Assembly (NCBI GenBank): GCA_027482185.1
Contig: JAIXWF010000022.1
Coordinates: 806,001-870,000 of the forward strand
Length of the DNA: 64,000 nucleotides
Source: Opitutaceae bacterium
Lineage (GTDB): Bacteria > Verrucomicrobiota > Verrucomicrobiia > Opitutales > Opitutaceae
Reading direction: 5' to 3'
In this document: piece by piece, positions 1,376 through 45,109 of the stretch
Numbering within the stretch: the stretch's first letter is position 1
Layout of the letters: every line of letters starts with the position of its first letter
Notes under the pieces: generated by a model
Told to the model about the DNA's origin: nothing
The model's input: only the letters and a program-made list of their open reading frames with translations
Databases searched by the model: none
Made by a program: the position numbers and the translations under genes

Positions 1376-4300
1376 ATGTTTTCGGCGACACCACGGCTAC
1401 GTCTGCGCGCTCTTCGCCTTGGCGGCGCCTTTTGTTGCGCGGTCGGAATGCTCGCGGCAGCGGAAGGGCCGCCGAATCCGCGCTACACCGGCAGTCTCTT
1501 CGTGCAGGAGTGGACCCCCGAGGAAACCGGCGGAAAGCCGCAGAGTTTTTCGGTGATCCAGCATCCCGCCACGGGCCTCATCTACGCGGGCAACGAGGCC
1601 GGTGTGCTGGAATACGACGGCGCACGTTGGCGGCGGCTACCTTTGCCGGCCGGAGCGCCGGAGGAGGGCGTTGTGGCGCGCGGAATGGATTTCGACGGGG
1701 AGGGGCGGTTGTGGGCGGCGGCGGACAACGACGTGTTGATCTATGCGCCGGACGCGCGCGGTCGGTGGCAACCCGAGTCCCTGCGATCGCGGCTGCCTGC
1801 CACGGAGCCGGCGCTGGGCGTAGTGTGGCAGGTGCTGCGCAATGGCGGTGCGATGTGCGGTGTGATCACGGACGGCGTCATTTGGGTCGACGTGCGAACG
1901 TGGGCTGTCCGACGTTGGCCGTTGGCGGGTACTTCGGCGATCGTCGGGCCCGTCGATGGAGAGACCTGGATTCATCACCGCGGCAAAGCGCTGCTGCGCG
2001 TGCGGGGGGACAAATTGGAACCGGCGCCCGTGCCGACTTTGCCCGAGGGGGTCTGGGTGCATGGCGTGTTGCGCACCGCCGCAGGGGTGCTGCAGGTGGA
2101 GCACAGCGGCGGCGTGCTGGAGTTGCGCGACGGGTCCTGGGTGCCGTTGGCGGCGGAGCTCGGCATCACATTGGCCGGTGCCGAGATTGCCTCGCGGACG
2201 ACGCGGTTGCCGGACGGCAGTCGCATCTTCAACACCCGTTCACGCACCTTGGTTTTTGCCGATGCGGCCGGACGGGTGTTGGGCCGGATCGCGGAGCCGG
2301 CGGGGGTGAATTTCGGCGTGACGCCGCAGACGCTGTGGGATCGCGACGGCGGTCTTTGGCTCGCCAACGCCTCGGGCATCCGGCGGGCGCAGATCGACCG
2401 CGCGGTCGTCCGTCACAGCGCGGGCGAGGGGCTGCGCGGCGGGGTGCGCAAGCTGCGGTTCGCGGGACCGGACTTGCTCGTCGCGTCGGCCCAAGGCCTG
2501 TTCGTGCGCGAGGCGGCCACCGGGAAATTTGAGCTGCAGGCCGGTAGTCCGTCCGACCAGCAGGATCTGTTGCCCAGCCCGGCGGGCGGCTGGCTCATGG
2601 CGGCCGGGCAGCGTTTCGGAGAGTGGCGGGACCGCACGGTGATCCGGGCGCCCGGTGCTCCGGGGGGAGGACTCTCTTTGGCGTCGGACCCGCGGGACGG
2701 GGCGCGCGTTTTTGTCGGTTCGACGAATCAAGTGGTCGTTTACCGCGGGGAGGAGGCCGGCTGGCGGAAGGAGACGGCTTTGGGCGGCATGTCGGGCGGA
2801 ATGTATTATGCGGCCTGCGATGCGGCGGGGGCGCTTTGGGCGACATCGGGATATGGGACTGGCGTTTGGCGCGCGACCGCGAGCGCGGGCGATTGGACCG
2901 CCGCGAAGGTGGAGCGGATGGACGGCGCGGGCGCGGGCGCTCCGGAGGCATCGTGGCGCGTGGCGAGCGTAGGGGGTGAGGCGGCGGTCTTCGGCGCGGC
3001 CGGGGTCTGGCGCACCGCCGCACCGGGTGGCCCGCTCGTGCCGGATCGGCGTTTCGACGGGCTGCCGCGCGGCGCGGCCACACCGATCCGGTGGATCGTG
3101 GCCGGAAGTGCGCCGAATGTAATCTATGTTGCCGGTGCGCTGGCTTGGCGCGACCGGTTTTGGCGCGGCACGCGGGAGCGCGCGGAGTCGCCGTGGACCT
3201 TCGCGGAAATGTCGCTTCCGGAGGCGCGGGTGAATCTGCGCCTGGAGGACATGCGGGAATCGCCCGACGGGCGCACGTTGTGGCTCGGAAGTCCCGAGGC
3301 GGCGTTCTCCGTCGACCTGAGTGCCCCGTCGCCGGAGTTTCGCGCGCCGGAGGCACGCTGGCGCGGGGTAAAAATCCTGGAGGGCGACGAAATCGTCTAC
3401 GCTGGAGCGGCGGAGCGGGCGGTGGTCGAACTGCCGGCCGGCCGGCGGGCGGTCGCGTTGGAATTTTCCGCGCCGGCGTTGCGCGTCCACGTGGGTGGAC
3501 GCACCGGCGTCGAATACCGCACCCGGGCCGGCGGGGTGGATCACGCCTGGACCGCGTGGTCGGCGAGTGCGGCGCGCGAGCTGACGAACCTGCCGCCGGG
3601 CGACGCGAAGGTGGAGGTGCAGGCGCGCAATCACCTCGGGGTCGCGGGCCCGGTGGCGATGATGACGCTCGTGGTGCCGCGGTTTTGGTGGGAAACGTGG
3701 TGGCTGCGGACGTGCGTGGTGCTCGCGGGAATCGCGCTGGTGGCGGCCGGAGTGAGGTGGTGGGTGCGGCGGCAGTTCCGGCTGAAGATTGCGGTGCTGG
3801 AAGCGCAGGCCGCGGTGCAGAACGAGCGGCTGCGTATCGCGCGCGATATGCACGACGATCTCGGCTCCACTCTGGCCGGGTCGTGCATCTCAGCGCCGGG
3901 GAAGGCGGGACCGGAGCGAAACCCGAGGCGACGCTGGCGCGCATCCACGAGGCCACCCGGGATCTGGTGCACCGTACGCGGGACATCGTGTGGGCGGCGA
4001 CGCCGCAGCATGATTCGCTCGAGAGTCTCATCGAGCAACTCGCCGCCCATGCCGAGCGCACGCTCGGGGATCGCGGTGTCGACGTGCGCGCGGAATTGCC
4101 GGCCCTCGTGCCGGAGGAGCCCATCGGGGCGGCCGCCCGGCATGGCTTGTTTTTGGCCTTCAAGGAAGCGGTCAACAACGCCGCGAAATACGCGCAGGCG
4201 CGCACGGCCGTCGTGCGGGTGGAGCTGACCGAGCGGGAGCTTGTGGTCACGCTCAAGGACGATGGGGTGGGTTTTGCGCCCGGTGAGCTGCAGGGCACGG

Positions 4301-33083: not shown

Positions 33084-34304
33084 TCAGACCGGCAAGGCGA
33101 TCACAAGGCGGAAGCTCGCCGCCTGCGGGGCGGTCGCAAGACCGAGCAGGCCGCGGCTCTTTTGGATCCCGACGACGAGACCGTGGGCCGGCACGCCCTG
33201 AAGCGACGGCAATTCGCCCTGCAGCCAGGCTTCGAAGTCGGCGCGACTCATGGCCGGTGCGTCCGCGGTGATCGAAATCTGGAGTCCCGGCTGGCTGGAG
33301 AGGAGGTGTTTGCGGTTCAGCCAGGCGAAGGGACCGGTCGCGTTTTCCCGGGCGACATGCTCGAGGCGGGCGAGCGGTTCGGCCTTCAGGCCCACGGTGG
33401 AACGCGGCCGGGCCCGCCGCAGCGCGACCGCGAGCGCGCAGACCATGAGGAGCAGGAATTCGATGCCGGAGAGGCCGCGTGCCGCGGTGTGTTCGTCGAG
33501 CCCGGCGCAGTCGGTCGCCTTTTCGTCCTCGTCCGCCCGGCTGATGCGGCGCGCGATTTCGAGCGCGTGGCGGACACCCGAGCCGACGAGGGCCGGCGAG
33601 GTGTCGCGGTTGCCGTAGGCCGAATCGAAGAACCCGGCGGAAACGATCATCGCGGCGTCCGCGGTGCGCTTGGCCTGTTCGAGGTTGCGCATCAGGCCGG
33701 AGAGGACGGGGTCGCCCCGGGAGCGGCCGCCGAGGACGGTCGTGGCGGAGGCAAGGTGGGCGTGGATCGTGGTCAGCAGGTTCGCCGTCTGCTGCAGCGC
33801 ATCGCGGGCGGACTCGGAGGCGACGAACTCGATTTCCTGCGCCATCCGGGCGGAGGCGAGATCGTCGGCGAGGGTATCGGCGCGCCGGGCAAGGCCCTGG
33901 TCGCGGCGGCAGCGCCGGGTGCGTTCGATCCACTCCGGCACCTTGGCTTCGAAGCCAAGCTTGTCGGGGAGGGGTTTTCCGATGAACGCATAGACCTGCA
34001 GCGGGATCGCCCGGCGGAGATTCTCGGCGGTGTCGAAGGCGCTGATAACGACGAAGCCGAGGTGGGGATCGGCCTGCTGGGCCTCGGCGATGAACGTGAG
34101 CCCGTCCTTTCCCGGCATGTGGACGTCGACGAGGCAGAGGTCGAACCGCTCGGAACGGAGGCAGGCAAGGGCCGAGGCGGCATCGGCACGATGGCACAGA
34201 TCGTAGTCGCGGCCGAGGCGGAGCCGAATGGCGGCGAAGATCTGGCGCTCATCGTCCACGACGAGAATCCGCGGCGTCATGGCGGCGGCGGGATCGTTGG
34301 GCAT
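33084..34304 (-). CDS. Receiver protein with histidine-kinase-like C-terminus
   Basis: 406 residues. A complete receiver spans about 10-130: RILVVDDERQIF (acidic pair), LCLVDVHMPGKDGLTF (phospho-Asp), FVVISAFDTAE (Ser switch) and YAFIGKPLPDK (Lys). The rest resembles a DHp/HATPase unit that has lost its motifs: a helical region with IHAHLASATTVLGGR in the H-box position, and a terminal strand pair GLVVGIQKSRGLLGLATAP...FRLVIALP in place of the G2 region. No N-box or DxGxG is seen. It is probably a signalling adaptor or phosphate sink of the kinase encoded 40 bp upstream. Confidence 0.8.
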   Translation of the reverse strand: MPNDPAAAMTPRILVVDDERQIFAAIRLRLGRDYDLCHRADAASALACLRSERFDLCLVDVHMPGKDGLTFIAEAQQADPHLGFVVISAFDTAENLRRAIPLQVYAFIGKPLPDKLGFEAKVPEWIERTRRCRRDQGLARRADTLADDLASARMAQEIEFVASESARDALQQTANLLTTIHAHLASATTVLGGRSRGDPVLSGLMRNLEQAKRTADAAMIVSAGFFDSAYGNRDTSPALVGSGVRHALEIARRISRADEDEKATDCAGLDEHTAARGLSGIEFLLLMVCALAVALRRARPRSTVGLKAEPLARLEHVARENATGPFAWLNRKHLLSSQPGLQISITADAPAMSRADFEAWLQGELPSLQGVPAHGLVVGIQKSRGLLGLATAPQAASFRLVIALPV

Positions 34305-34344: not shown

Positions 34345-36432
34345 TCAAGCCGCGGTTCGGGCCGGCTCCCGGGAGGCCGGGCCGTCGGGCGCGGCGGCGA
34401 CCGGGGGCTCCGCCGGCAGGTCCACGAAGACGGTGGTGCCGACGTCGGGCGTGCTGTCGATGCGGATCCGGCCGTGATGCAGGTGGGTGATTTTCTGGGC
34501 GATGGTGAGCCCGAGCCCGATGCCGCGCACCTCGCTGCCGAATTCTTTGGTGGTGAAGTAGGCGTCGAAGACCCGCTCGAGGTCCGCCGTGGGAATGCCG
34601 CAACCCCGGTCCGCGATCAGGAATCGGACGGCGCCCTCGCGCGGGACCGAGACGTCCAACCGGACCTCCTGGCCGGGCCGCGAGGCGTCGACGGCGTTGG
34701 CGACGAGGTTGCCGAGGAGGCGTTGGATCAGGACGGCGTCGACTTGGAGCGCGGGGGCCGGGCCGGGGTTGAAGACCAGCCCGACGTTGCGGCGCGCCGC
34801 GCGTTCCCGGATGACCTCGCGCACGCTGTCGAGCAGGTGGTCCGCCCGGGTTGGGGCGTAGTTCGGGGCAAGGCGTTCGGAGAAGAAGAGGGCTTCGCGA
34901 AGATACGCTGACATGCTGGAGATCGACTGCTTGGCGGTCGCATGGACCTCCAATTCCAAACTGCCCGCAGGAAACTTGTCCGCGGTATGAACGAGGAAGG
35001 AGTCGACCGGGGTGATGAGGTTCTTCAAGTCGTGGGCCAGCCCGCGGGACATCATGGCGAGGTGCTCCATGCGGGCCTGGAGCTCGGCTTGGGCGGCCAA
35101 CCGGGAGCGGGTGAGCAGGCTGTCGATGAGTTCGGCGGCATTCTGCAGGCGCTGCACTTCGTTGTAGGCGTAGGGCCAGTCGTTGGACTTGCGGCCGAGG
35201 GCGAGGATCAGCGACGGGTGCGGGGAACCCCGCGGGATGGCGACCACGACCCCGATCCGGTTCGCCTCAAGGTAGGCTTCCAGCTCGGCGTGGGACGGCG
35301 GACCGCCGCGGCGTTGCAGCGATTCCGGCGTCGCCCAGGCGAGTTCGACCAGCGGCGCATAGGGCGAAGGAACGGGGGGCGGCGCGGGCCGGGCGGGATT
35401 GGGTTTCCGGTCCTCCGCCGGGAAGAAGATGATGCGGGCGTCCGTGGCGGAGAACCGTTCGCAGAGGAACCGGCGGAAATCCCGGACCAGCTCGGGCTCG
35501 CTCTTGGTTGCTTCGCCAAGCTGGATGAGGCGGTCGCGCAGTCCGGCGAGCCAGATCTCGTCCGCCTTGCCGAGATGCCGGGCAATCGACCGATGCAGCA
35601 GAAGCGCGGCGGTGCCCGCGAGCAAGGTGCCCCCGCCGACGGCGGTGGGCAGCGGCAGGACGGGCGCGAGCCGCAAAGTAGTCCAGATGCCGACGATCAC
35701 CAGCGTGGCCGTGCTGAGCGCCCAATGCAGGAGCGAAACGGCGACGCGCTGGAGGTTGAAGATTTTGTAGTAATTCAGTGCCCAGGCTGATGTTCCGTAG
35801 GCCGCGAATGCAATTAATGGGCCTAGTCGAGAAATGGCGGGTACTCGCAGTGCGGCCCCGAGTGTATGCGACACAATCGTAAGCACGGCTGCGATTGAAA
35901 GATTCAGTGTGAGAAATCGTAGCTCGTGCCGTCGTGATCCGCTCAACTTTTTCAGTACATCATTTGAGTAATACAAAACATACAGCGTACCAAAAAGCAT
36001 CAAAATGGAGTAAGCCGCGTAGGCGAAGCCTCTCGTGATTTGAGGATGAGATTTTGATATTATTACAAAATCGCGGTGAAATGTCAGTGAACATACAATT
36101 ATGCTGACGGCAAAAATCGGGACGGATTTCGCGAGGAGAAATAGGCTGCCAAGACTTGGCGAAGTAATTGAACGAGCGACCAACCATTGCGCCCAAATAT
36201 GAAATGCCGCCACTGCGGCATTTGCTCGATGGAAAAAATCAGAATTGGAGTGCCCGAAAGCAGCCAATTTTTGATTCTCGTGGTACGTTTGGACGACGAG
36301 GAAAAGCCATATGCAATTTACCAAACCGCCGACGAAGAAGGCTTGATTGGTTGGCCTCTTCGGATTTGCCCAGAGCACAAAAAGCGCAACTCCACCTGTA
36401 AATATGGAAGCGCAAAGAAATATGGTGCCCAT
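34345..36432 (-). CDS. Membrane sensor histidine kinase with N-terminal 7TM-type sensor
   Basis: 695 residues. Residues 1-280 contain about eight hydrophobic segments and the N-terminal pattern FVLWANPKRPTNQAFFVGG, seen in HisKA_7TM-type sensors. A GAF-like region (about 320-450, GVVVAIPRGSPHPSLILALG) follows. The kinase core has H-box GLAHDLKNLITPVDSFLV, N-box LLGNLVANAVDASRPG, G1 IADRGCGIP, F-box YFTTKEFG and G2 GIGLGLTIAQKI, so it looks active. The first ~220 codons (35.77-36.43 kb) are markedly AT-rich (36061-36120 has 23 G/C in 60 by hand count), while the rest matches the genome. It is the first gene of the left operon. A paralogue with the same architecture lies at 40483-42492. Confidence 0.88.
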   Translation of the reverse strand: MGTIFLCASIFTGGVALFVLWANPKRPTNQAFFVGGLVNCIWLFLVVQTYHENQKLAAFGHSNSDFFHRANAAVAAFHIWAQWLVARSITSPSLGSLFLLAKSVPIFAVSIIVCSLTFHRDFVIISKSHPQITRGFAYAAYSILMLFGTLYVLYYSNDVLKKLSGSRRHELRFLTLNLSIAAVLTIVSHTLGAALRVPAISRLGPLIAFAAYGTSAWALNYYKIFNLQRVAVSLLHWALSTATLVIVGIWTTLRLAPVLPLPTAVGGGTLLAGTAALLLHRSIARHLGKADEIWLAGLRDRLIQLGEATKSEPELVRDFRRFLCERFSATDARIIFFPAEDRKPNPARPAPPPVPSPYAPLVELAWATPESLQRRGGPPSHAELEAYLEANRIGVVVAIPRGSPHPSLILALGRKSNDWPYAYNEVQRLQNAAELIDSLLTRSRLAAQAELQARMEHLAMMSRGLAHDLKNLITPVDSFLVHTADKFPAGSLELEVHATAKQSISSMSAYLREALFFSERLAPNYAPTRADHLLDSVREVIRERAARRNVGLVFNPGPAPALQVDAVLIQRLLGNLVANAVDASRPGQEVRLDVSVPREGAVRFLIADRGCGIPTADLERVFDAYFTTKEFGSEVRGIGLGLTIAQKITHLHHGRIRIDSTPDVGTTVFVDLPAEPPVAAAPDGPASREPARTAA

Positions 36433-38132: not shown

Positions 38133-39284
38133 ATGCTGACCGAGAATCCTCCGGCCGTCGCTCCGAGCGCTGTCTCCGAAAAACCACCTGTTCTGGTGGT
38201 TGACGACGAATACGGACCGCGGGAATCGATCGCGTTCAGTCTAGCCGCCGATTTCGCGGTGGACACGGCGGAGCGGGCCAAGGAGGCGCTGGGCAAACTG
38301 CGCACGCGCTCCTACAGCGCCGTCGTCATGGATATCCGCATGCCGGAAATGGACGGGATCCGGGCGCTCGAGGAGCTGCGGAAAATCGATCCGCATGTCT
38401 CGGTGATCATGCTGACGGGCTACGGCACGCTGCACACCGCGCAGCAGGCCATGGTGGCCGGGGCCAACCAGTACCTGCGCAAACCGCCGGATATTCCCGA
38501 GTTGATCGAGGCGGTGCGGAAACAGGCGCATGCCACGCGGCTGCGGCGCGCCCAGGCCCAGGCGGCGGCGGAAGCGCTGAGCCTGAACACCGCTTTGAAG
38601 CGCGAGATCGAGCGCAACGAGCCGCAGATCTGGCAGGCCCGGGCATCCGTCGAGCTCGTGCACGATCTCAACAATCCGCTGACGGTGGTGATCGGTTACG
38701 CGGCTTTGGTGGCCGAGGAAGCGCGGACGCTGGCGCAGCGCGATCCCGATACCGCGCGCAAACTGCTCGATTATTCGGGCATGGTGGAAAAGGCGGCCGA
38801 GTATTGTCACCACCTCTCCGAAAATTGGCGGGCGGCCTCGAAGCAGGCGGCGGAGTTTACGCGGGTGGATCTGGTGAAGGTGGCCCAGGAAGTCCGGCAA
38901 GTGATCTTTTTCGACAACGCGGCGATCCAGCTGACAGGGCTCGGCGAGGCGGTTGTCCGCGGCTCGAAGTACGAGCTCATGCGGGTGTTCCAGAATCTCT
39001 TCAAGAACGCGCTCGAGGCCGGGGCGACGCGTCTCGAAGTGAAGTTCGCGCGGCGGGGTGAACAGACGGAACTCAGCGTCGCGGACAACGGTTCGGGGAT
39101 GGATGCGGAGCGGGTCAAGCGGGCCCTGCACGGCGGCTTTACCAGCAAGGCCAGCGGCACCGGACTGGGGTTGAGCATCTGCCGGCACTTGGCCGGCACG
39201 CACGGGGCCACCTTCGCGCTGGAGTCCGCCCTCGGGCGCGGCACCACGGTGCGGCTAACGTTTCCCGCCGCGCCGCAGGGATGA
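38133..39284 (+). CDS. Hybrid response regulator-histidine kinase (REC-HK)
   Basis: 383 residues, cytosolic. The N-terminal receiver (about 20-135) is complete: VLVVDDEYGPRES, VVMDIRMPEMDG (phospho-Asp), IMLTGYGTLHTA, YLRKPPD. A helical linker leads to the kinase core with H-box VELVHDLNNPLTVVIGY, N-box VFQNLFKNALEAGA, G1 VADNGSGMD and G2 SGTGLGLSICRHL. It begins the right signalling operon. Its stop overlaps the ketosynthase-like gene start by 4 bp. The input receiver suggests it is regulated by phosphotransfer from another kinase of the cluster. Confidence 0.9.
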   Translation: MLTENPPAVAPSAVSEKPPVLVVDDEYGPRESIAFSLAADFAVDTAERAKEALGKLRTRSYSAVVMDIRMPEMDGIRALEELRKIDPHVSVIMLTGYGTLHTAQQAMVAGANQYLRKPPDIPELIEAVRKQAHATRLRRAQAQAAAEALSLNTALKREIERNEPQIWQARASVELVHDLNNPLTVVIGYAALVAEEARTLAQRDPDTARKLLDYSGMVEKAAEYCHHLSENWRAASKQAAEFTRVDLVKVAQEVRQVIFFDNAAIQLTGLGEAVVRGSKYELMRVFQNLFKNALEAGATRLEVKFARRGEQTELSVADNGSGMDAERVKRALHGGFTSKASGTGLGLSICRHLAGTHGATFALESALGRGTTVRLTFPAAPQG

Positions 39285-40492
39285 AGCGGCGGCGAGTCAA
39301 AATTACCGGCATCGGGCCGGTCACTCCGGCCGGAATCGGACGCGAGGATTTTTGGCGGGGTATTCTGTCGGGGCAAAGTTTCATCCGGCCATATCGCAAG
39401 CTGGGAGAGGAGTTTGGTTCATTTTGTGCGGCATTTCTATCTATACCCGACTTTAAGAAGTATCTTGGAGAGTTCGAGGTGCCTAAGGGAACATCCCGAC
39501 AGACTTTGCTAGCGGCAGTCGGTGCCCGTTTGGCTTTGGCCGATGCCCGGCTGACAAGAGCAGAGCTTCGCGACAGTGATTGCGCGATTGTGATAGGATC
39601 TTCTTTGTTGGATTTTGGTGGTATCGGCGCTGCAATAGACAGCGTTGGAAAGCGTGGACCTAGAGCTGCCCAAGCGCGCGTTGTATACACTACTACTCTC
39701 ACTAGCATATCGGAAGTTGTCGCTGGAATGTGTGACATTACGGGCAGGAGTTTGTCGATTCAGACGTCCTGCTGCGCCGGGATGGATGCGATTGGCCAAG
39801 CGTTTCGTATGGTTTCAAGTGGTGAGGTCGATTTGGCGATTTGTGGCGGGACCGAGGCGCCGCTGCACAAATTTCCTATGCTTGAGCTTCGGGCGGCAGG
39901 ATTGACGCCGTGCAGCAATGATATGTCGGACCGAATCGCGCGACCGTTGGATCTTTGGCGGACAACTGGTGTGGTAAGTGAAGGATCGTGCATTCTTGTG
40001 TTGGAGCCGGAGGACAGTCCTCGCCGAGGTCACGCCCTAGTTGCTGGGTATGGAGTGGCTAATGATGTTCCCGATAGGTTGTGCAGTGGGCTTATCGATT
40101 CCGCGAAATCCGCTATTGCGGATGCTCTGATTCGCCCGAATTTGATCGAAGCGCTCAATGCTTGGGCCCCGGGGCATCGTCTCATTGACGAGGCTGAGGT
40201 AGAGTCCATGAGAAAAGTCTTTGGCCCCCAGTTGTCAGATGTGCTGGCGTATTCTATTAAGGGTTCGATCGGTTCGGCGCTTGGTGCTGCTCCTGCTATC
40301 CAAGTTGGAGCCTCTGCCCTCGCGCTCGCCGCGGGACTTGTTCCTGGGACGGTAAATTGGCAGTATCCTGATCCTTCGTGTCTATTGAATCTCTCATCGA
40401 GTAGTAGGCAGGTTGCCCACGACTTTGAGTTGGTGAATGCTCACGGCGTCGGAAAAGTAAATGCCTCGATAGTATTGCAAAAATGTTCGTAA
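39281..40492 (+). CDS. Beta-ketoacyl synthase-like protein with altered catalytic triad
   Basis: 403 residues, full-length thiolase-fold KS. N-terminal MKRRRVKITGIGPVTPAGIG matches FabF-type KS. The nucleophile Cys is kept (about residue 164, IQTSCCAGMDAIGQAF), and GGTEAPL and VSEGSCILVLEPED align with family blocks. Both catalytic histidines are replaced: the NAHGT motif reads NAWAPGH (Trp at about 295), and KSxxGH reads KGSIGS (Ser at about 332). It therefore cannot do standard decarboxylative Claisen condensation; acyl transfer or binding is possible. It is AT-richer than the flanking genes from about 39.39 kb on. It overlaps both neighbours (4 and 10 bp), so it is translationally coupled to histidine kinases. 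No ACP or other lipid gene is nearby. Confidence 0.85.
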   Translation: MKRRRVKITGIGPVTPAGIGREDFWRGILSGQSFIRPYRKLGEEFGSFCAAFLSIPDFKKYLGEFEVPKGTSRQTLLAAVGARLALADARLTRAELRDSDCAIVIGSSLLDFGGIGAAIDSVGKRGPRAAQARVVYTTTLTSISEVVAGMCDITGRSLSIQTSCCAGMDAIGQAFRMVSSGEVDLAICGGTEAPLHKFPMLELRAAGLTPCSNDMSDRIARPLDLWRTTGVVSEGSCILVLEPEDSPRRGHALVAGYGVANDVPDRLCSGLIDSAKSAIADALIRPNLIEALNAWAPGHRLIDEAEVESMRKVFGPQLSDVLAYSIKGSIGSALGAAPAIQVGASALALAAGLVPGTVNWQYPDPSCLLNLSSSSRQVAHDFELVNAHGVGKVNASIVLQKCS

Positions 40493-42492
40493 TCACACTC
40501 GCCCTATTGGTGACGGTTGTAGTGGCTGCTGTTGGGCTGACGATTCTTTGGTCCAATCCGAAAAGAGGGGTGAACCGAGCTGTGTTTGTCGGCGCGGTCC
40601 AGATGGCTGCGTGGCTCTTGTGCTGGCATTTCGCGGCAACTTCCAGAAATGGTCTTTATTGGATTCGATGGACTTGTGCGGTTGGCGCCCTGGCTCCGCT
40701 TACCTTTTGGATCGTTAAGGAGTGCATTTTGTATAGGCCCGGAAGGCCTTTGTTTGATTGGTTTATGCGGAGCTGCCCGTGGATAATTGTACCTGCGGTA
40801 TTTTCAATTCTGCCTTTTACCGATGCATTCATTCCGCCGGAGTCGACTCCGAAGAATCCGATCCATGGCTGGGCTTATGGCTTATATATTTGGGGACTTG
40901 TTGCAATATATATAGTTTTGTTTCGTGATACATTCTTTCGATCTAAGGAAGTTTCGGGTGTGGAAAGGGTCGAACTCCAGGTTTGGCTTGGTGGTGGTTG
41001 TGTGCTCGCGGTTACCGTCTATGCCCTGATGGGGTTGAGTGCGTTCACTGGGAATCCGATTTTTCGCAGACTTCAGCCTTTGGCTGTGCTGCTGTTTTAC
41101 GCAGGGACCGCCTATGCGGTGACAAGCTTCAGAATATTCGATGCTCGCCAGATATTTCTGGTTTCGATCCAGAGGGGGATACTAGTAGTTACGGTGGCTG
41201 TCGTTGCTTATTTTGTGCAGAGCAGTGTCGAGCTCTTTGTGCCGAAGCTCTTCTCGTTTCTGATTACAACCTCGGTGGCATTGTGGCTCGCCACATTTTT
41301 GGATTCTTTGCTGGATCGATATTTTCAGTTCTATCCGAAGGCAATGTTTGCGCGGAAGGCTGCATTCTCCGTTGCCCAAAGAGAAAGCCGCCTTGAGAAG
41401 CTGGAGTCTGCGTTTCTGGGGGTGCTTAAGGGTTGGGGACAGGCTGAAACGGCGGTAATTCTATCGGGAGGAAAAGGTTCATTCGCCGTCGACTCGTCTA
41501 TTGTTCTAGATGAAACAGGGCTTGAGTTTCAGGCGATGAGACAATTGCGCTGGGCAACCCCGGAGCGTCTTGTTCGCGAACGCGGAAGTCCTGAACGTGA
41601 TGCTTTGAGAGAATTTCTTGTTCAGAAGAAGCTCGGCGTGGTTGTCATTGTCGAGGGCACTTCGTTGACGAGCGTTGTCGGCGTGGGGATTCCGGCTTCG
41701 CGGCGGCCTTATACTTACCCGCAGGTCACGCAGCTCATGGAGCTGGCTTCCATCATGGAGAGCGCCCTCGAGCGCGCGCACTTCTCCGCCAAGGTTCAGC
41801 ACACGGAACAGCTCGCGACCGTCGGCCTGCTCGGGGCCAGTCTCGCGCACGAAATCCGCAATCCGCTCGTTTCCATCAAGACCTTCGTCCAGCTGCTGCC
41901 GACCCACCACCAGGATCCGCGTTTCCGGGAAAAGTTCTTCAAGCTGATCGGCGACGAAGTCGGCCGGATCGACCAGCTCACCGAGCAACTGCTCGATCTC
42001 GCGTCCCCGCGCACCTACGAGGCCAAGCTGATCGAGCTGCACCCGCTGCTGCGCTCAAGCCTCGACCTCGTCGCCGCCAAGGCGGCCCACCGGAACATCG
42101 AGTTTCTGACCGAGTTCCATGCCTCGCCCGATGCGGCGTTCACCGATGCGTCCGCCGCCAAGCAGGTGATGCTGAACCTCTGCTTCAACGCCATCCAGGC
42201 GGTCGACGAGGCGCGGGAGGCGCCCGCCCGCTGGGTGAAAATCGCGACCCGCAATACGCCCCAGGGCATCGAGATGGCGGTGGCCGACAGCGGTCCGGGC
42301 ATCGCGCCGGAGATCCGGCCCCGGCTGTTCCAGCCGTTCCAGACCACGAAATCCTCCGGTTTCGGTCTGGGCCTCGCGATCTGCAGCGATATTCTGGCCA
42401 ATCTCAACGCCACCATCGCCGTCGACCCGCCGGTCCCCGGCCAGGGGGCCATCTTCCGCGTCACTTTCCCATGCCAACCCTCGTTATCCTAG
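40483..42492 (+). CDS. Membrane sensor histidine kinase with N-terminal 7TM-type sensor
   Basis: 669 residues, paralogue of the kinase at 34345-36432. The N-terminal segment carries about eight membrane helices starting VVVAAVGLTILWSNPKRGVNR, a ~150-residue GAF-like region (FLVQKKLGVVVIVEGTSLTS), and a complete core. H-box SLAHEIRNPLVSIKTFVQLL, N-box LNLCFNAIQAVDEA, G1 VADSGPGIAP, F-box LFQPFQTTK, G2 GFGLGLAICSDIL. Roughly the first 405 codons (to about 41.70 kb) are AT-rich, then composition switches sharply to genome-like GC within the gene. It overlaps the KS-like gene by 10 bp and the next kinase by 22 bp. Confidence 0.9.
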   Translation: MFVITLALLVTVVVAAVGLTILWSNPKRGVNRAVFVGAVQMAAWLLCWHFAATSRNGLYWIRWTCAVGALAPLTFWIVKECILYRPGRPLFDWFMRSCPWIIVPAVFSILPFTDAFIPPESTPKNPIHGWAYGLYIWGLVAIYIVLFRDTFFRSKEVSGVERVELQVWLGGGCVLAVTVYALMGLSAFTGNPIFRRLQPLAVLLFYAGTAYAVTSFRIFDARQIFLVSIQRGILVVTVAVVAYFVQSSVELFVPKLFSFLITTSVALWLATFLDSLLDRYFQFYPKAMFARKAAFSVAQRESRLEKLESAFLGVLKGWGQAETAVILSGGKGSFAVDSSIVLDETGLEFQAMRQLRWATPERLVRERGSPERDALREFLVQKKLGVVVIVEGTSLTSVVGVGIPASRRPYTYPQVTQLMELASIMESALERAHFSAKVQHTEQLATVGLLGASLAHEIRNPLVSIKTFVQLLPTHHQDPRFREKFFKLIGDEVGRIDQLTEQLLDLASPRTYEAKLIELHPLLRSSLDLVAAKAAHRNIEFLTEFHASPDAAFTDASAAKQVMLNLCFNAIQAVDEAREAPARWVKIATRNTPQGIEMAVADSGPGIAPEIRPRLFQPFQTTKSSGFGLGLAICSDILANLNATIAVDPPVPGQGAIFRVTFPCQPSLS

Positions 42493-44249
42493 CGACCGCC
42501 GACGCCGCCCTGGCGGACGCGTGGGAGCGGCAGCTGCCCGTCGGGCGAATCTGCCTGCGGCTCGGGGCGCAGAATTTTCCCGGCGGCACGGCGCCGGGGT
42601 TCGCCGCGGTGGTCGTGCTCGACGCCGCGAGCGAACCCTCGCTGCCGCCCTCGCTCGCGCGCTGCCCGACGATTTTCGTGGGCGAGCCGCGCAGCCTGCC
42701 GTTCGAGCAGGCGCGCATGGCGGGCCGGGCCAAGGTCTATCTTTCGTACGAGGAGAGCGCGCAGCGGTTGCGCGAGCTGCTGCCGCTGGTCGAGGAGGTG
42801 GCGGAGAAGCAGTCGATGGTCGAGATGCTGGTCGAGAAGGCCCGGCGCGGCGACCTGCCCCGGCCGGCGCTGCGCAGCCCGGCGGCGGACCACGCGGAGC
42901 TGTGGGATTTCCTCGAGGGCGCGATCGAAAATCTGGATACGCGCGACCGCCTGATCGCCGAGTTCCGTCGCGCGTCGCGGCACGTGCTGCGCGCCTCGCA
43001 CACCGTGTTCTTCCTGCGGGAGGCGGACGGTTTCCGCGCCGACCGCGGGACCTCGTTTTTCCCGGCCGACGATCCGCTGGTGGCGTTTTTCGAGAACCAT
43101 CCCGCGGTGATCGACGGTACCAACTGGGACGGACCGGCCGATCCGGTGGCGGAGCTCGCCGTGCGCAACCGGCTCGCGCTCTGGGGTGCCCGGCTGCTCG
43201 TCCCGGTCCACGACAACGGCCGGCTGCTCGGTCTGATCGCCCTCGGCGTGCGCGACGACGGTCAAGCCTACGACGAAGCGGACCGCTCGCGGGGCGTCTT
43301 TTTTGCGCGGCTGTTGCGGCACTTTCTGGGGAAGTCGGCGCAGTTCAGCCGGCTGAACCATCTCTCCGAACAGGTCGGCCTCGGGGCCAAGTACCTGCCC
43401 GGCACGCTCGTGCTGGGGCCGGGCGACACGGCGCCGCGGCACGTGCCGCTCGTGGTGCGCGATGCGATCGGGCAGGCGCGCCGGACGCGGGAGATCTGCC
43501 GCGTCGCCCCGACGGCGGGGCAGCCTTTCCGCGCCAGCGCCGGGGTCATCGCGGAGACCGGCGGCATCTGGGCGTTTTGGGAAGAGGCCAGCAGCGAAGT
43601 GCACGATGCGCAGGTGCGGGCGACCGCGAGCCGGCGCGAGGTGCTGCGCGAACTGGCGCTGACGCTGAGCCATGAGCTGGGCAACGCGATCGTCTCGCTT
43701 GCGACTTTTCGCCAGGCGGGACCGGACCGGCCGCTGCCGCCGGCGCTGCTGGAAACGATGAAGACCGACGTCGGCCAGCTGGAGCAGTTGAACGACAACC
43801 TCGCGCTGATGCAGGTGCTGCACGAGGCGGAGCCCGCGGCCGTCGACGTGCGCGAGGTCGTCCAGACCGTCGGCCATGCCCTCGGCCTGCGCGTGGAGGT
43901 CGGGCCGGATCCGGTGGTGCTCATGGCGAGCCGGCGTTTGCTCGATTTCGCGCTGCGCGCGTTGGTACGGACGATCGGCGAAAACCGCCCCGAGCACGGC
44001 TTGCGCGAGCTGGCGCTGAAGGTGCGCTCGACGGGCACGGGGCCGGAGCTGACGGCGTTGCTGTCGCTGAAGGGCAAGCACCTCGAGCTCGAGGGTATCT
44101 TGCCGGAGCCCGCGGACGACGCGGTGCCGAACCAGGGCCGGCTCGGGGTGTTTCTGGCGAAGGAAATCCTGCGGCTGCACCGCGGCGAGATCCACGCCGG
44201 TCCGGGCATGGAAGGCACGGAGATCCTGATTTCGCTGCGGCACCTCTGA
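42471..44249 (+). CDS. GAF-containing histidine-kinase-like protein with degenerate ATPase
   Basis: 592 residues, no membrane segments. Residues 1-110 look like a pseudo-receiver (TLVILATADAALADAWERQL, VVVLDAASEPSLPPSLARC). A GAF-like domain follows (about 200-300, LLVPVHDNGRLLGLIALGVR). The DHp H-box is good: LALTLSHELGNAIVSLATF. The HATPase domain is reduced: the N-box lacks its Asn pair (ALRALVRTIGENRPEHG), G1 is not seen, and only the last strand-helix (GRLGVFLAKEILRLHRGEIH) remains. It may act as a phosphotransfer or dimerisation partner of the upstream kinase. The start overlaps the upstream gene by 22 bp and the stop is 2 bp before the nucleotidyltransferase. Confidence 0.8.
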   Translation: MPTLVILATADAALADAWERQLPVGRICLRLGAQNFPGGTAPGFAAVVVLDAASEPSLPPSLARCPTIFVGEPRSLPFEQARMAGRAKVYLSYEESAQRLRELLPLVEEVAEKQSMVEMLVEKARRGDLPRPALRSPAADHAELWDFLEGAIENLDTRDRLIAEFRRASRHVLRASHTVFFLREADGFRADRGTSFFPADDPLVAFFENHPAVIDGTNWDGPADPVAELAVRNRLALWGARLLVPVHDNGRLLGLIALGVRDDGQAYDEADRSRGVFFARLLRHFLGKSAQFSRLNHLSEQVGLGAKYLPGTLVLGPGDTAPRHVPLVVRDAIGQARRTREICRVAPTAGQPFRASAGVIAETGGIWAFWEEASSEVHDAQVRATASRREVLRELALTLSHELGNAIVSLATFRQAGPDRPLPPALLETMKTDVGQLEQLNDNLALMQVLHEAEPAAVDVREVVQTVGHALGLRVEVGPDPVVLMASRRLLDFALRALVRTIGENRPEHGLRELALKVRSTGTGPELTALLSLKGKHLELEGILPEPADDAVPNQGRLGVFLAKEILRLHRGEIHAGPGMEGTEILISLRHL

Positions 44250-44251
44250 CG

Positions 44252-45109
44252 ATGACGGATATCGGCCGACGGCTGGAAACCTGGGCGGAAGGCGAGCCGA
44301 CGGTGCGCGCGCTCTTTGCGATCGGCTCGCGCTCGCGGGACGCCGGCGGCCCGGGGGCCGCAGACATCTATTCGGACTGGGATTACCAGGTCATCGCGGC
44401 GGAGCCGGCATTGTTCGACCAGGCGGGTTGGTGCGAGCAGGCCGGCCTGGGCAAGCCGCTCGCCTATGTGTTGAGGAGCGGCCGGCTCGGCGGCGTGCGC
44501 AAGGTGACCGCGGTGGTCGCCGGCGGAGAGATCGACGCGGTGATCATTCCCGCGGCGCAGTTCGTGGCGGTCCGGGCGGCGGTGCAGGCGGGAACCTACC
44601 GCGAGAGCCCGTTGGTGTGGAGCGCGCTGCGGGACCAAGGCCTGGTGTTGGCGGGCGGCTTCCGGCGGATGAAGGACGAGATCGCGGCGGAGGAGCTGTT
44701 CCGCTGGGTGGAGAAAAACCTGCCGCCGCCGCGGCTCAGCGAGGCCGAGATTGTCGAACTGGCAGAGGGATTCGTCTGCGACTACGTGTCCACGATGCGG
44801 AAAATCGCGCGGGGCGAACTTGTCGCGGCGCAACGTTGGCTGCACGCGCAGTTGGCTGAGACCAACTACCGGCTGCTGCACGAACTGCGGCGCCGTCGGG
44901 GACAGGCGAGTTTTCCGGATGCGCGCCGGCTGGAACTGCTGGCGGCGGGGGCTGAACTCGGCTTGGTGCGGATCGAGGCGACCCTCGAGGCGCGGAGCCT
45001 GCGCGCGGCGGCGGGGCGGAGCGCGCAGGGTTGCGCGGCGCTGGTCCGGAGCCTGATCGGCGACGCGTGGCGCTGGCCGGAGCTGCCGTCAGGCCTGCGC
45101 GTTGAATAG
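44252..45109 (+). CDS. Nucleotidyltransferase-fold protein (DNA polymerase beta superfamily)
   Basis: 285 residues. The NTase core is visible: FAIGSRSRD..., then the metal-binding pair in YSDWDYQVI (D-x-D) and a third Asp in GGEIDAVII. The C-terminal half is helical (YVSTMRKIARGELVAAQRWL), resembling the aminoglycoside 6-adenylyltransferase/AadK-like group. Possible roles are small-molecule nucleotidylation or regulatory AMPylation; the substrate is unknown. It is the last gene of the right signalling operon (2 bp gap) and overlaps the convergent ABC ATPase gene tail to tail by 21 bp. Confidence 0.82.
   Translation: MTDIGRRLETWAEGEPTVRALFAIGSRSRDAGGPGAADIYSDWDYQVIAAEPALFDQAGWCEQAGLGKPLAYVLRSGRLGGVRKVTAVVAGGEIDAVIIPAAQFVAVRAAVQAGTYRESPLVWSALRDQGLVLAGGFRRMKDEIAAEELFRWVEKNLPPPRLSEAEIVELAEGFVCDYVSTMRKIARGELVAAQRWLHAQLAETNYRLLHELRRRRGQASFPDARRLELLAAGAELGLVRIEATLEARSLRAAAGRSAQGCAALVRSLIGDAWRWPELPSGLRVE

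Follow-up and report, generated by a model that had tools for sequence, protein, structure and literature searches.

In a two-component operon of an Opitutaceae bacterium, we analysed a gene for a ketosynthase-like protein that lies between two histidine kinase genes. The operon stands within a stretch of 64,000 nucleotides, hereafter the window (assembly GCA_027482185.1, contig JAIXWF010000022.1, positions 806,001 to 870,000 of the forward strand). The gene overlaps that of a soluble REC-kinase by 4 bp on one side (39281-39284) and that of a membrane kinase by 10 bp on the other (40483-40492), as a first-pass annotation made from the sequence alone had proposed (Table 1). That annotation also held that the protein keeps the nucleophilic Cys of ketosynthases and has lost both catalytic His residues, which alignment to solved FabF/KAS II (beta-ketoacyl-acyl carrier protein synthase II) chains bears out. 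Beyond these points, we find that the protein belongs to a clade distributed across the phylum Verrucomicrobiota, that most relatives outside the window's order have a different, C-H-N active site, and that the ketosynthase and kinases can be part of a larger module.

The ketosynthase-like protein of the window

Pfam recognises both halves of a ketosynthase in the protein (ketoacyl-synt N, 95.6 bits; C, 50.9 bits), and phmmer aligns it over its full length with solved FabF/KAS II chains. Its AlphaFold model, computed with 15 sequences, has a predicted template modelling score of 0.83 and a mean predicted local distance difference test (pLDDT) of 75.3. The best Foldseek matches of this model are the ishigamide ketosynthase (6kxd chain A) and the FabF proteins of T. 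thermophilus and B. subtilis, with TM scores of about 0.8. The predicted structure supports a KAS II fold and says nothing on function; its active-site loops are uncertain (segments 195-203, 215-232 and 328-332, with pLDDT below 50).

With the KAS II/FabF family (TIGR03150; PDB 1j3n, 4ls5, 1kas), the window protein shares the fold, a full-length alignment, the position of the Cys residue and Lys327. It differs in that the first-His motif of FabF, NAHGT, reads NAWAPGH in the alignment, and the second, KxxxGH, reads KGSIGS. His388, characteristic of the clade, occupies what we take to be the position of Phe398 in FabF (E. coli numbering). The NCBIfam fabF model (TIGR03150) gives the protein 192.5 bits, against a cut-off of 493.75; two members of the clade from outside the window's order, at 342 and 333 bits, are also under that cut-off. 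There are six further ketosynthase matches in the window's genome, and the five of them used as controls (L002-L006) all have the C-H-H triad. Score, residues, clade and gene context exclude that the protein is an ordinary FabF paralogue. A sequence error at positions 295 and 332, which the first-pass annotation had kept in mind, is excluded as well, as the substitutions are conserved across orthologues of the family (Table 1; the single exception at position 295 is a Cys).

Compared with a 78%-identical orthologue (L008), the ketosynthase has a nonsynonymous divergence (dN) of 0.146 and a ratio to synonymous divergence (dN/dS) of 0.06, with a dS of 2.4 that is near saturation. Ratios of 0.16 and 0.054 were found in two other pairs. 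The three kinases have a dN of 0.027-0.062 against the same orthologue.

Table 1. Features of the operon in the window, with residue counts in the family of the window (f1), another family of the same order (f8), clade members outside that order (wider) and FabF-like controls
Feature	Position	Strand	Basis or conservation
Ketosynthase-like protein (KAS II fold), 403 aa, ATG start	39281-40492	+	Open reading frame, Pfam, phmmer, AlphaFold, Foldseek
Cys164 codon, nucleophile position (TSC-C-AG)	39770..39772	+	C in 88/88 clade rows and 26/26 FabF-like controls
Trp295 codon, at first catalytic His of FabF	40163..40165	+	W in 39/40 f1 and 4/4 f8; wider (n=44): H 38, N 4, Y 2
His299 codon (GPGH)	40175..40177	+	H in 40/40 f1 and 4/4 f8; wider (n=44): H 12, D 31, E 1; T in 26/26 FabF-like
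Ser332 codon, at second catalytic His of FabF	40274..40276	+	S/N/T in 40/40 f1; His in just 8/88 clade rows
His388 codon, clade-specific	40442..40444	+	H in 85/88 clade rows (R 2, gap 1), 0/26 FabF-like controls
Soluble REC-histidine kinase, first gene of the operon	38133..39284	+	Pfam Response_reg, HATPase_c, weak HisKA
Membrane histidine kinase	40483..42492	+	8 hydrophobic peaks in residues 1-267, then HisKA and HATPase_c
GAF-containing degenerate histidine-kinase-like protein	42471..44249	+	Weak GAF and HisKA, HATPase_c unmatched
Fast-evolving protein with nucleotidyltransferase-like motif GSRSRD...SDWDYQ	44252..45109	+	Usual fifth gene in f1; own motif reading

Distribution and active-site variants of the clade

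The genome searches covered Verrucomicrobiota alone, and many of the loci derive from metagenome-assembled genomes. Among 57 genomes including the window's own, 16 others have an orthologue with at least 43% identity, one of which is partial (G001); the next-best matches are FabF-like proteins with 27-32% identity. A scan of all phyla, which detects close relatives only, returned 15 loci, labelled as Opitutia, Opitutae, Opitutaceae, Opitutus, Cephaloticoccus or plain Verrucomicrobia. When 273 genomes of the order were searched with a profile, f1 members were found in 15 genomes at 548 bits or more and f8 members in four genomes at 404-425 bits, with FabF-like proteins scoring at most 266 bits. 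Across 387 genomes of the phylum, 46 match at 1e-82, and a broader profile finds 58 genomes at 453 bits or more (the window's included; the loci of the other 57 were retrieved). Six matches below the gap at 453 bits were inspected: L195, which is partial, and L196 belong to the clade, and L194, L197, L198 and L199 are C-H-H FabF proteins without kinases. The kinase-linked clade was found in 60 of the 387 genomes, a count that omits the below-gap matches G564 (partial), G589, G456 and lower ones.

Residues were counted over 88 clade rows (40 f1, 4 f8 and 44 wider) and 26 FabF-like controls. L012 (in-frame stop), L067 (partial) and L052 and L057 (which duplicate L008 and L011) were omitted from these counts; L114 and L157, near-copies of L014 and L039 respectively, and the partial L195 were counted for residues and are absent from the tree described below. 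L012, L067 and L114 are included in the counts of neighbouring genes. L012 (8001-9209) comes from a metagenome-assembled genome; its GAF-kinase frame is broken in addition to the in-frame stop in the ketosynthase gene, probably through assembly error.

None of the 88 clade rows has both catalytic His residues together, and all 26 FabF-like controls have C-H-H. Position 295 is occupied by W in 43 clade rows, H in 38, N in 4, Y in 2 and C in one. The rows with His at position 332 are those of f8 and L189-L192, in which position 295 is W or N. The commonest form in the wider rows is C-H-N (30 of 44), which is absent from f1 and f8; the variants within the clade include C-H-N, C-W-N, C-W-S, C-W-T, C-W-H, C-Y-N and C-N-H. 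Lys327 is replaced by Arg in four clade rows. In an alignment of 28 rows of orthologues from the window's family (A2), Cys164, Cys165, Asp169, His299, Lys327, His388 and Asn394 are invariant, and Trp295 nearly so. L189-L192 represent a third active-site variant, with Asn at the first His position (NANACSD or NANAYGD), Arg in place of the active-site Lys, and His at the second position. In L125 and L132, Tyr stands at the first His position and His388 is replaced by Arg, and PF03349 (FadL) has no match next to their ketosynthase genes or elsewhere in their genomes.

In a maximum-likelihood tree of 111 rows obtained by a quick search, the kinase-linked clade (86 rows) separates from the FabF-like proteins (25 rows) with a support of 100 in the Shimodaira-Hasegawa-like approximate likelihood ratio test (SH-aLRT). 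The f1 and f8 members together form one branch of 43 rows, all with W at position 295 except one with C (SH-aLRT 100). The Y pair and the N group (SH-aLRT 100 for each) sit elsewhere in the tree. The tree is weak inside, with 27 of 108 inner branches open, and there is a warning of long branches meeting for three of the controls, L003 and L005 being two of them. Judged by eye on this tree, with no formal count, the first His appears to have disappeared on three or more occasions, each time starting from a state with His at this position. The lineage of the window additionally swapped its remaining His for Trp.

Gene context, sigma-54-like sites and co-divergence

The association with kinases is conserved. 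In 29 of 29 distinct f1 loci (31 rows minus two duplicates), the REC-kinase gene is directly upstream of the ketosynthase gene; five other f1 loci have a nucleotidyltransferase-like gene (L118, L119, L123, L124, where it stands between the REC-kinase and ketosynthase genes) or an oxidase gene (L121) in that place. Membrane kinase and GAF-kinase genes follow in all 27 loci of the first f1 set with sequence past the ketosynthase. A membrane-kinase match is the next same-strand gene in all 42 wider loci that have room for it (two others end with their contig before the next gene), in 4 of 4 f8 loci and in 12 of 12 further f1 loci, among them L114, a near-copy of L014. The 42 wider counterparts of the membrane kinase all have at least five hydrophobic peaks in their first 310 residues. 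A second kinase comes next in 40 of 41 wider loci with room, and in L152 a REC-kinase is found there. The adjacency of ketosynthase and kinase described by the first-pass annotation therefore extends to every locus with sequence beyond the ketosynthase, and we saw no clade ketosynthase without kinases wherever flanking sequence existed. C-H-H homologues in unrelated contexts were what the first-pass annotation had named as refuting its idea, and this check speaks in its favour. Such C-H-H homologues do exist, and they form the separate FabF-like clade: none of the eight controls with flanks has a same-strand kinase neighbour, the adjacent kinase match of L157 being on the opposite strand.

Outside the order of the window, the module is often larger. 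Among the 44 wider loci, a number of which are cut by contig ends, a FadL (PF03349) match occurs in 33, a FAD-linked oxidase in 17, a sigma-54 regulator match above 150 bits in 18 and a match of REC-kinase type in 39. In L131, the plus strand encodes the ketosynthase, a HisKA_7TM-GAF-PAS kinase, a GAF-PAS kinase and a REC-sigma54-HTH regulator; the minus strand encodes a methyltransferase, a REC-kinase and FadL, the latter identified by its similarity to a PF03349 protein of L142. The oxidase (FAD_binding_4) is conserved in L126, L127, L134, L136, L142 and others; it is found inside the operon in f8 and beside the ketosynthase in L121, and possibly acts on a lipid of the module.

Sites resembling sigma-54 promoters were scored over 12 positions with GG and GC fixed, using 1920 random windows from 64 loci as background. 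A score of at least 9 is reached upstream of fadL in 21 of 33 loci, against 7.3% of the background (binomial P 2e-16), and a score of at least 10 in 14 of 33, against 1.5% (binomial P 2e-17); these P values are overstated, because the loci share ancestry and most of the random windows fall in coding sequence. Twenty of the 21 sites lie 47-128 bp before the fadL start, as extrapolated from alignment. With 200 shuffles per region, 18 of the 21 sites are at 0.05 or below, the exceptions being L139 (0.09), L185 (0.075) and L147 (0.055). In the direction of the ketosynthase gene, 2 of 33 regions reach a score of 9, which is not above background, and we rejected a sigma-54 site driving that gene.

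We also compared evolutionary distances between the parts of the module in 37 f1 loci. Median identity ranges from 0.37 in the predicted seven-transmembrane (7TM) region of the membrane kinase, the least conserved part, to 0.77 in the REC domain, the most conserved. After controlling for the distances of the REC-kinase, the GAF protein and the kinase domain, we find a partial correlation of 0.39 between ketosynthase and 7TM-region distances (permutation P 0.0005); the corresponding values are -0.16 for the REC-kinase and -0.02 for the GAF protein. Such co-divergence is modest evidence for a link between ketosynthase and sensor.

As for loss and ESSENTIALITY, 24 of the 57 genomes have the GAF-kinase, and 17 of these, the window's own included, have the ketosynthase. 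In six of the seven genomes with the GAF-kinase alone, the contig stops on the side where the ketosynthase would lie. The seventh, G030 (L216), may be viewed as a natural ketosynthase deletion within the family.

The 7TM label that the first-pass annotation gave to the membrane kinase of the window rests on hydropathy (Table 1); the HisKA_7TM model of Pfam matches the counterpart in L131 (51 bits) and none of the four f1 proteins scanned. The GAF protein is degenerate in the window, and its L131 counterpart has full HisKA and HATPase_c domains. The product of the fifth gene is matched in most f1 loci and has a dN/dS of 0.20; it has no meaningful Pfam match, one orthologue giving a sub-threshold Adenyl_transf hit (E 0.016). 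An RmuC gene before the operon and an ABC-transporter gene after it are mostly conserved in f1 loci. Beyond RmuC, a second membrane kinase (34345-36432, minus strand) is followed by a REC protein (33084-34304, minus strand), and a similar pair without ketosynthase is matched near the operon in several f1 loci. The first-pass annotation saw no acyl carrier protein (ACP) or other lipid gene nearby. This is true of the eight proteins scanned around the ketosynthase, among which there is no lipid gene, and no FadL match was found in the whole window, which was not annotated for ACP throughout; it does not hold for relatives elsewhere in the phylum, which carry an adjacent FadL-family channel.

A putative lipid input to the membrane kinase

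Two described types of systems, RpfF/RpfC/RpfG for the diffusible signal factor (DSF) and CqsA/CqsS for CAI-1, couple a membrane histidine kinase to the enzyme that makes a lipid-type signal, and the coupling of enzyme and membrane kinase genes typical of RpfF/RpfC-like systems is found in the window operon. RpfF has a crotonase fold and CqsA an aminotransferase fold, and to our knowledge these modules contain no ketosynthase, FadL or sigma-54 regulator. Homology of the window protein to RpfF or CqsA is not seen with Pfam, which gives only ketosynthase and weak thiolase domains; no direct comparison with the two was made. In Photorhabdus, the signal made through PpyS is received by a LuxR-type receptor, not a kinase, and the ketosynthase for the dialkylresorcinol signal is presumably DarB. 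RpfC binds its synthase RpfF via a REC domain (excerpt of PMC13220807). PpyS is a ketosynthase whose product is a quorum-sensing signal; its triad was modelled as C-H-N, and its best solved template was OleA (excerpt of PMC4578411). The wider members with C-H-N in our alignment are likened to PpyS through that published description, not by direct sequence comparison. The window protein itself is not of the C-H-N KAS III type represented by PpyS and OleA: its residues are C-W-S, and its best models and structures are of KAS II type.

The nearest described pair of a membrane kinase and a sigma-54 regulator that we know of is PrsK/PrsR. Membership was rejected on scores: the window kinase obtains 89.3 bits against a cut-off of 300 (TIGR02916), and the L131 regulator 382.8 against 502.6 (TIGR02915). 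In the PEP-CTERM/EpsH context, PrsK is a membrane histidine kinase and PrsR an NtrC-like sigma-54 regulator, with -24/-12 sites upstream of target genes, and a table in the same source lists Verrucomicrobium spinosum without PrsK or PrsR (excerpt of PMC1569441). The term ketoacyl does not occur in that paper (PMC1569441). More generally, our searches of open-licence literature showed no description of a ketosynthase in a two-component operon (subscription journals and preprints were outside their scope).

Our tentative interpretation, to which we give a little less than an even chance, is that the ketosynthase accepts acyl groups and provides a lipid input to the membrane kinase, by analogy with RpfF for RpfC. 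Acyl capture is the most defensible activity, because Cys164, alone among the catalytic residues, is retained in all 88 rows. The protein, probably as a dimer of KAS II type, would be acylated at Cys164, with acyl-ACP or acyl-CoA as the donor. The C-H-N form, common elsewhere than in the order of the window, might then join or transfer this group to yield a small hydrophobic signal, which the adjacent membrane kinase would read via its transmembrane domain. This signal could, in many other lineages, also pass the outer membrane through the FadL-type channel, whose gene, probably switched on by the sigma-54 response regulator of the module, would create positive feedback. FadL imports long-chain acyl-homoserine lactone signals in Sinorhizobium (excerpt of PMC9938287). 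Together with the C-H-N triad of PpyS and the binding of RpfF by RpfC, this analogy leads us to prefer a lipid signal, or another lipid input to that membrane kinase, over the other readings. In the lineage of the window, the ketosynthase most likely would only load and transfer, or display, an acyl group, and His299 and/or His388 may substitute for the lost base. Because of Trp295 and the lack of a linked FadL, an acyl carrier or sensor is more likely there than a condensing enzyme. The view of the first-pass annotation that standard condensation is unlikely fits the window protein, but it is less certain clade-wide, since C-H-N, found in most wider members, is the triad modelled for a condensing enzyme, PpyS.

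Several observations weigh against a lipid input to the kinase. Eleven of the 44 wider loci have no FadL match, and neither a linked FadL nor a sigma-54 regulator above 150 bits is found in any of the 46 f1 and f8 loci, the window among them. PF03349 has no match in the genome of the window, in a search that was positive in other genomes; it is also unmatched in G022, G070, G186, G145 (75% complete), G315 and G441, and present in G029 and G159 (both f1, unlinked), G610, G354 and G336. No sigma-54-like site is found near the window operon, the only one scoring at least 10 in the window being at 4289, and 12 of the 33 fadL genes lack a site scoring 9. The complete genome G030 has the REC-kinase, membrane kinase and GAF-kinase with the ketosynthase absent. 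As for co-divergence, the correlation is modest and the 7TM region is also the fastest-evolving part; REC-kinase distances correlate with it too (0.22, P 0.011). When only two controls are held fixed, the ketosynthase correlates also with the catalytic domain of the membrane kinase (0.28, P 0.0015) and with the N-terminal part of the GAF protein (0.18, P 0.02). Finally, repeated loss of the first His is odd for a working condensing enzyme.

A rival explanation is that the protein is a covalent acyl sensor: acyl-ACP or acyl-CoA of the cell would charge Cys164, and in this form the protein would contact the kinases to report on the state of fatty-acid synthesis, with no diffusible signal. The acyl-accepting Cys is invariant and both His positions are variable, the first His having been lost several times by our reading of the tree, and the overlaps between the genes fit a complex. 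A related case is provided by the KS0 domains of polyketide synthases, in which His is changed to Ser and which are expected to be non-elongating (excerpt of PMC4661987). Like the window protein, they combine a ketosynthase fold with replacement of the condensation His, but they are domains of megasynthases and not stand-alone proteins in signalling operons. We nevertheless regard such a sensor as rather unlikely: a FadL under probable sigma-54 control and the co-divergence with the transmembrane sensor, not with the soluble kinases, both suggest a hydrophobic ligand in the membrane. The first-pass annotation had proposed either an acyl-binding sensor or an enzyme making a small lipid signal, and both alternatives survive. 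That the kinase receives a lipid input is favoured by the FadL channel, by the sigma-54-like sites and by the way ketosynthase and sensor domain diverge together.

Alternatively, the ketosynthase might be a specialised lipid-making enzyme that is co-regulated with the kinases and takes no part in signalling, the kinases sensing something else and controlling the uptake of hydrophobic substrates via FadL. The occurrence of FadL and the FAD oxidase in many loci, the direction of the sigma-54-like sites towards fadL and not the ketosynthase gene, and the persistence of the kinases in G030 speak for it. We consider it improbable given that C-H-H is seen in no clade row, that ketosynthase and kinases remain paired in the window lineage with no linked FadL, and that the ketosynthase co-diverges with the sensor domain. 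Loss of both catalytic His residues in f1 could also point to a structural pseudoenzyme serving as a scaffold for the kinases, much like a chain length factor, in which Cys164 would be a relic. Chain length factors, however, have lost the active-site Cys. The invariance of Cys164 across very divergent sequences, and the conservation of His388 and, in the Trp lineage, of His299 within motifs that carry the FabF active site, make this explanation very improbable in our view.

It is possible, if doubtful, that a fatty-acid enzyme has here been turned into a covalent lipid receptor. Cys164 would capture a specific acyl chain, making the ketosynthase a detachable ligand-binding domain of the membrane kinase, whose phosphorylation would follow the acyl status. 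In other lineages, the same module would have grown into a complete lipid-signalling circuit, equipped with an outer-membrane channel of its own under sigma-54 feedback.

Our searches of open-licence literature showed no lipid-signalling module of this type in Verrucomicrobiota. If our interpretation is true, these bacteria would gain a candidate signalling system in which enzyme, receptor, channel, regulator and promoter are all defined, and the KAS II fold would join the enzyme classes tied to two-component sensing. The clade also offers a natural series of active sites, which raises the question of which ketosynthase chemistry persists without the catalytic histidines.

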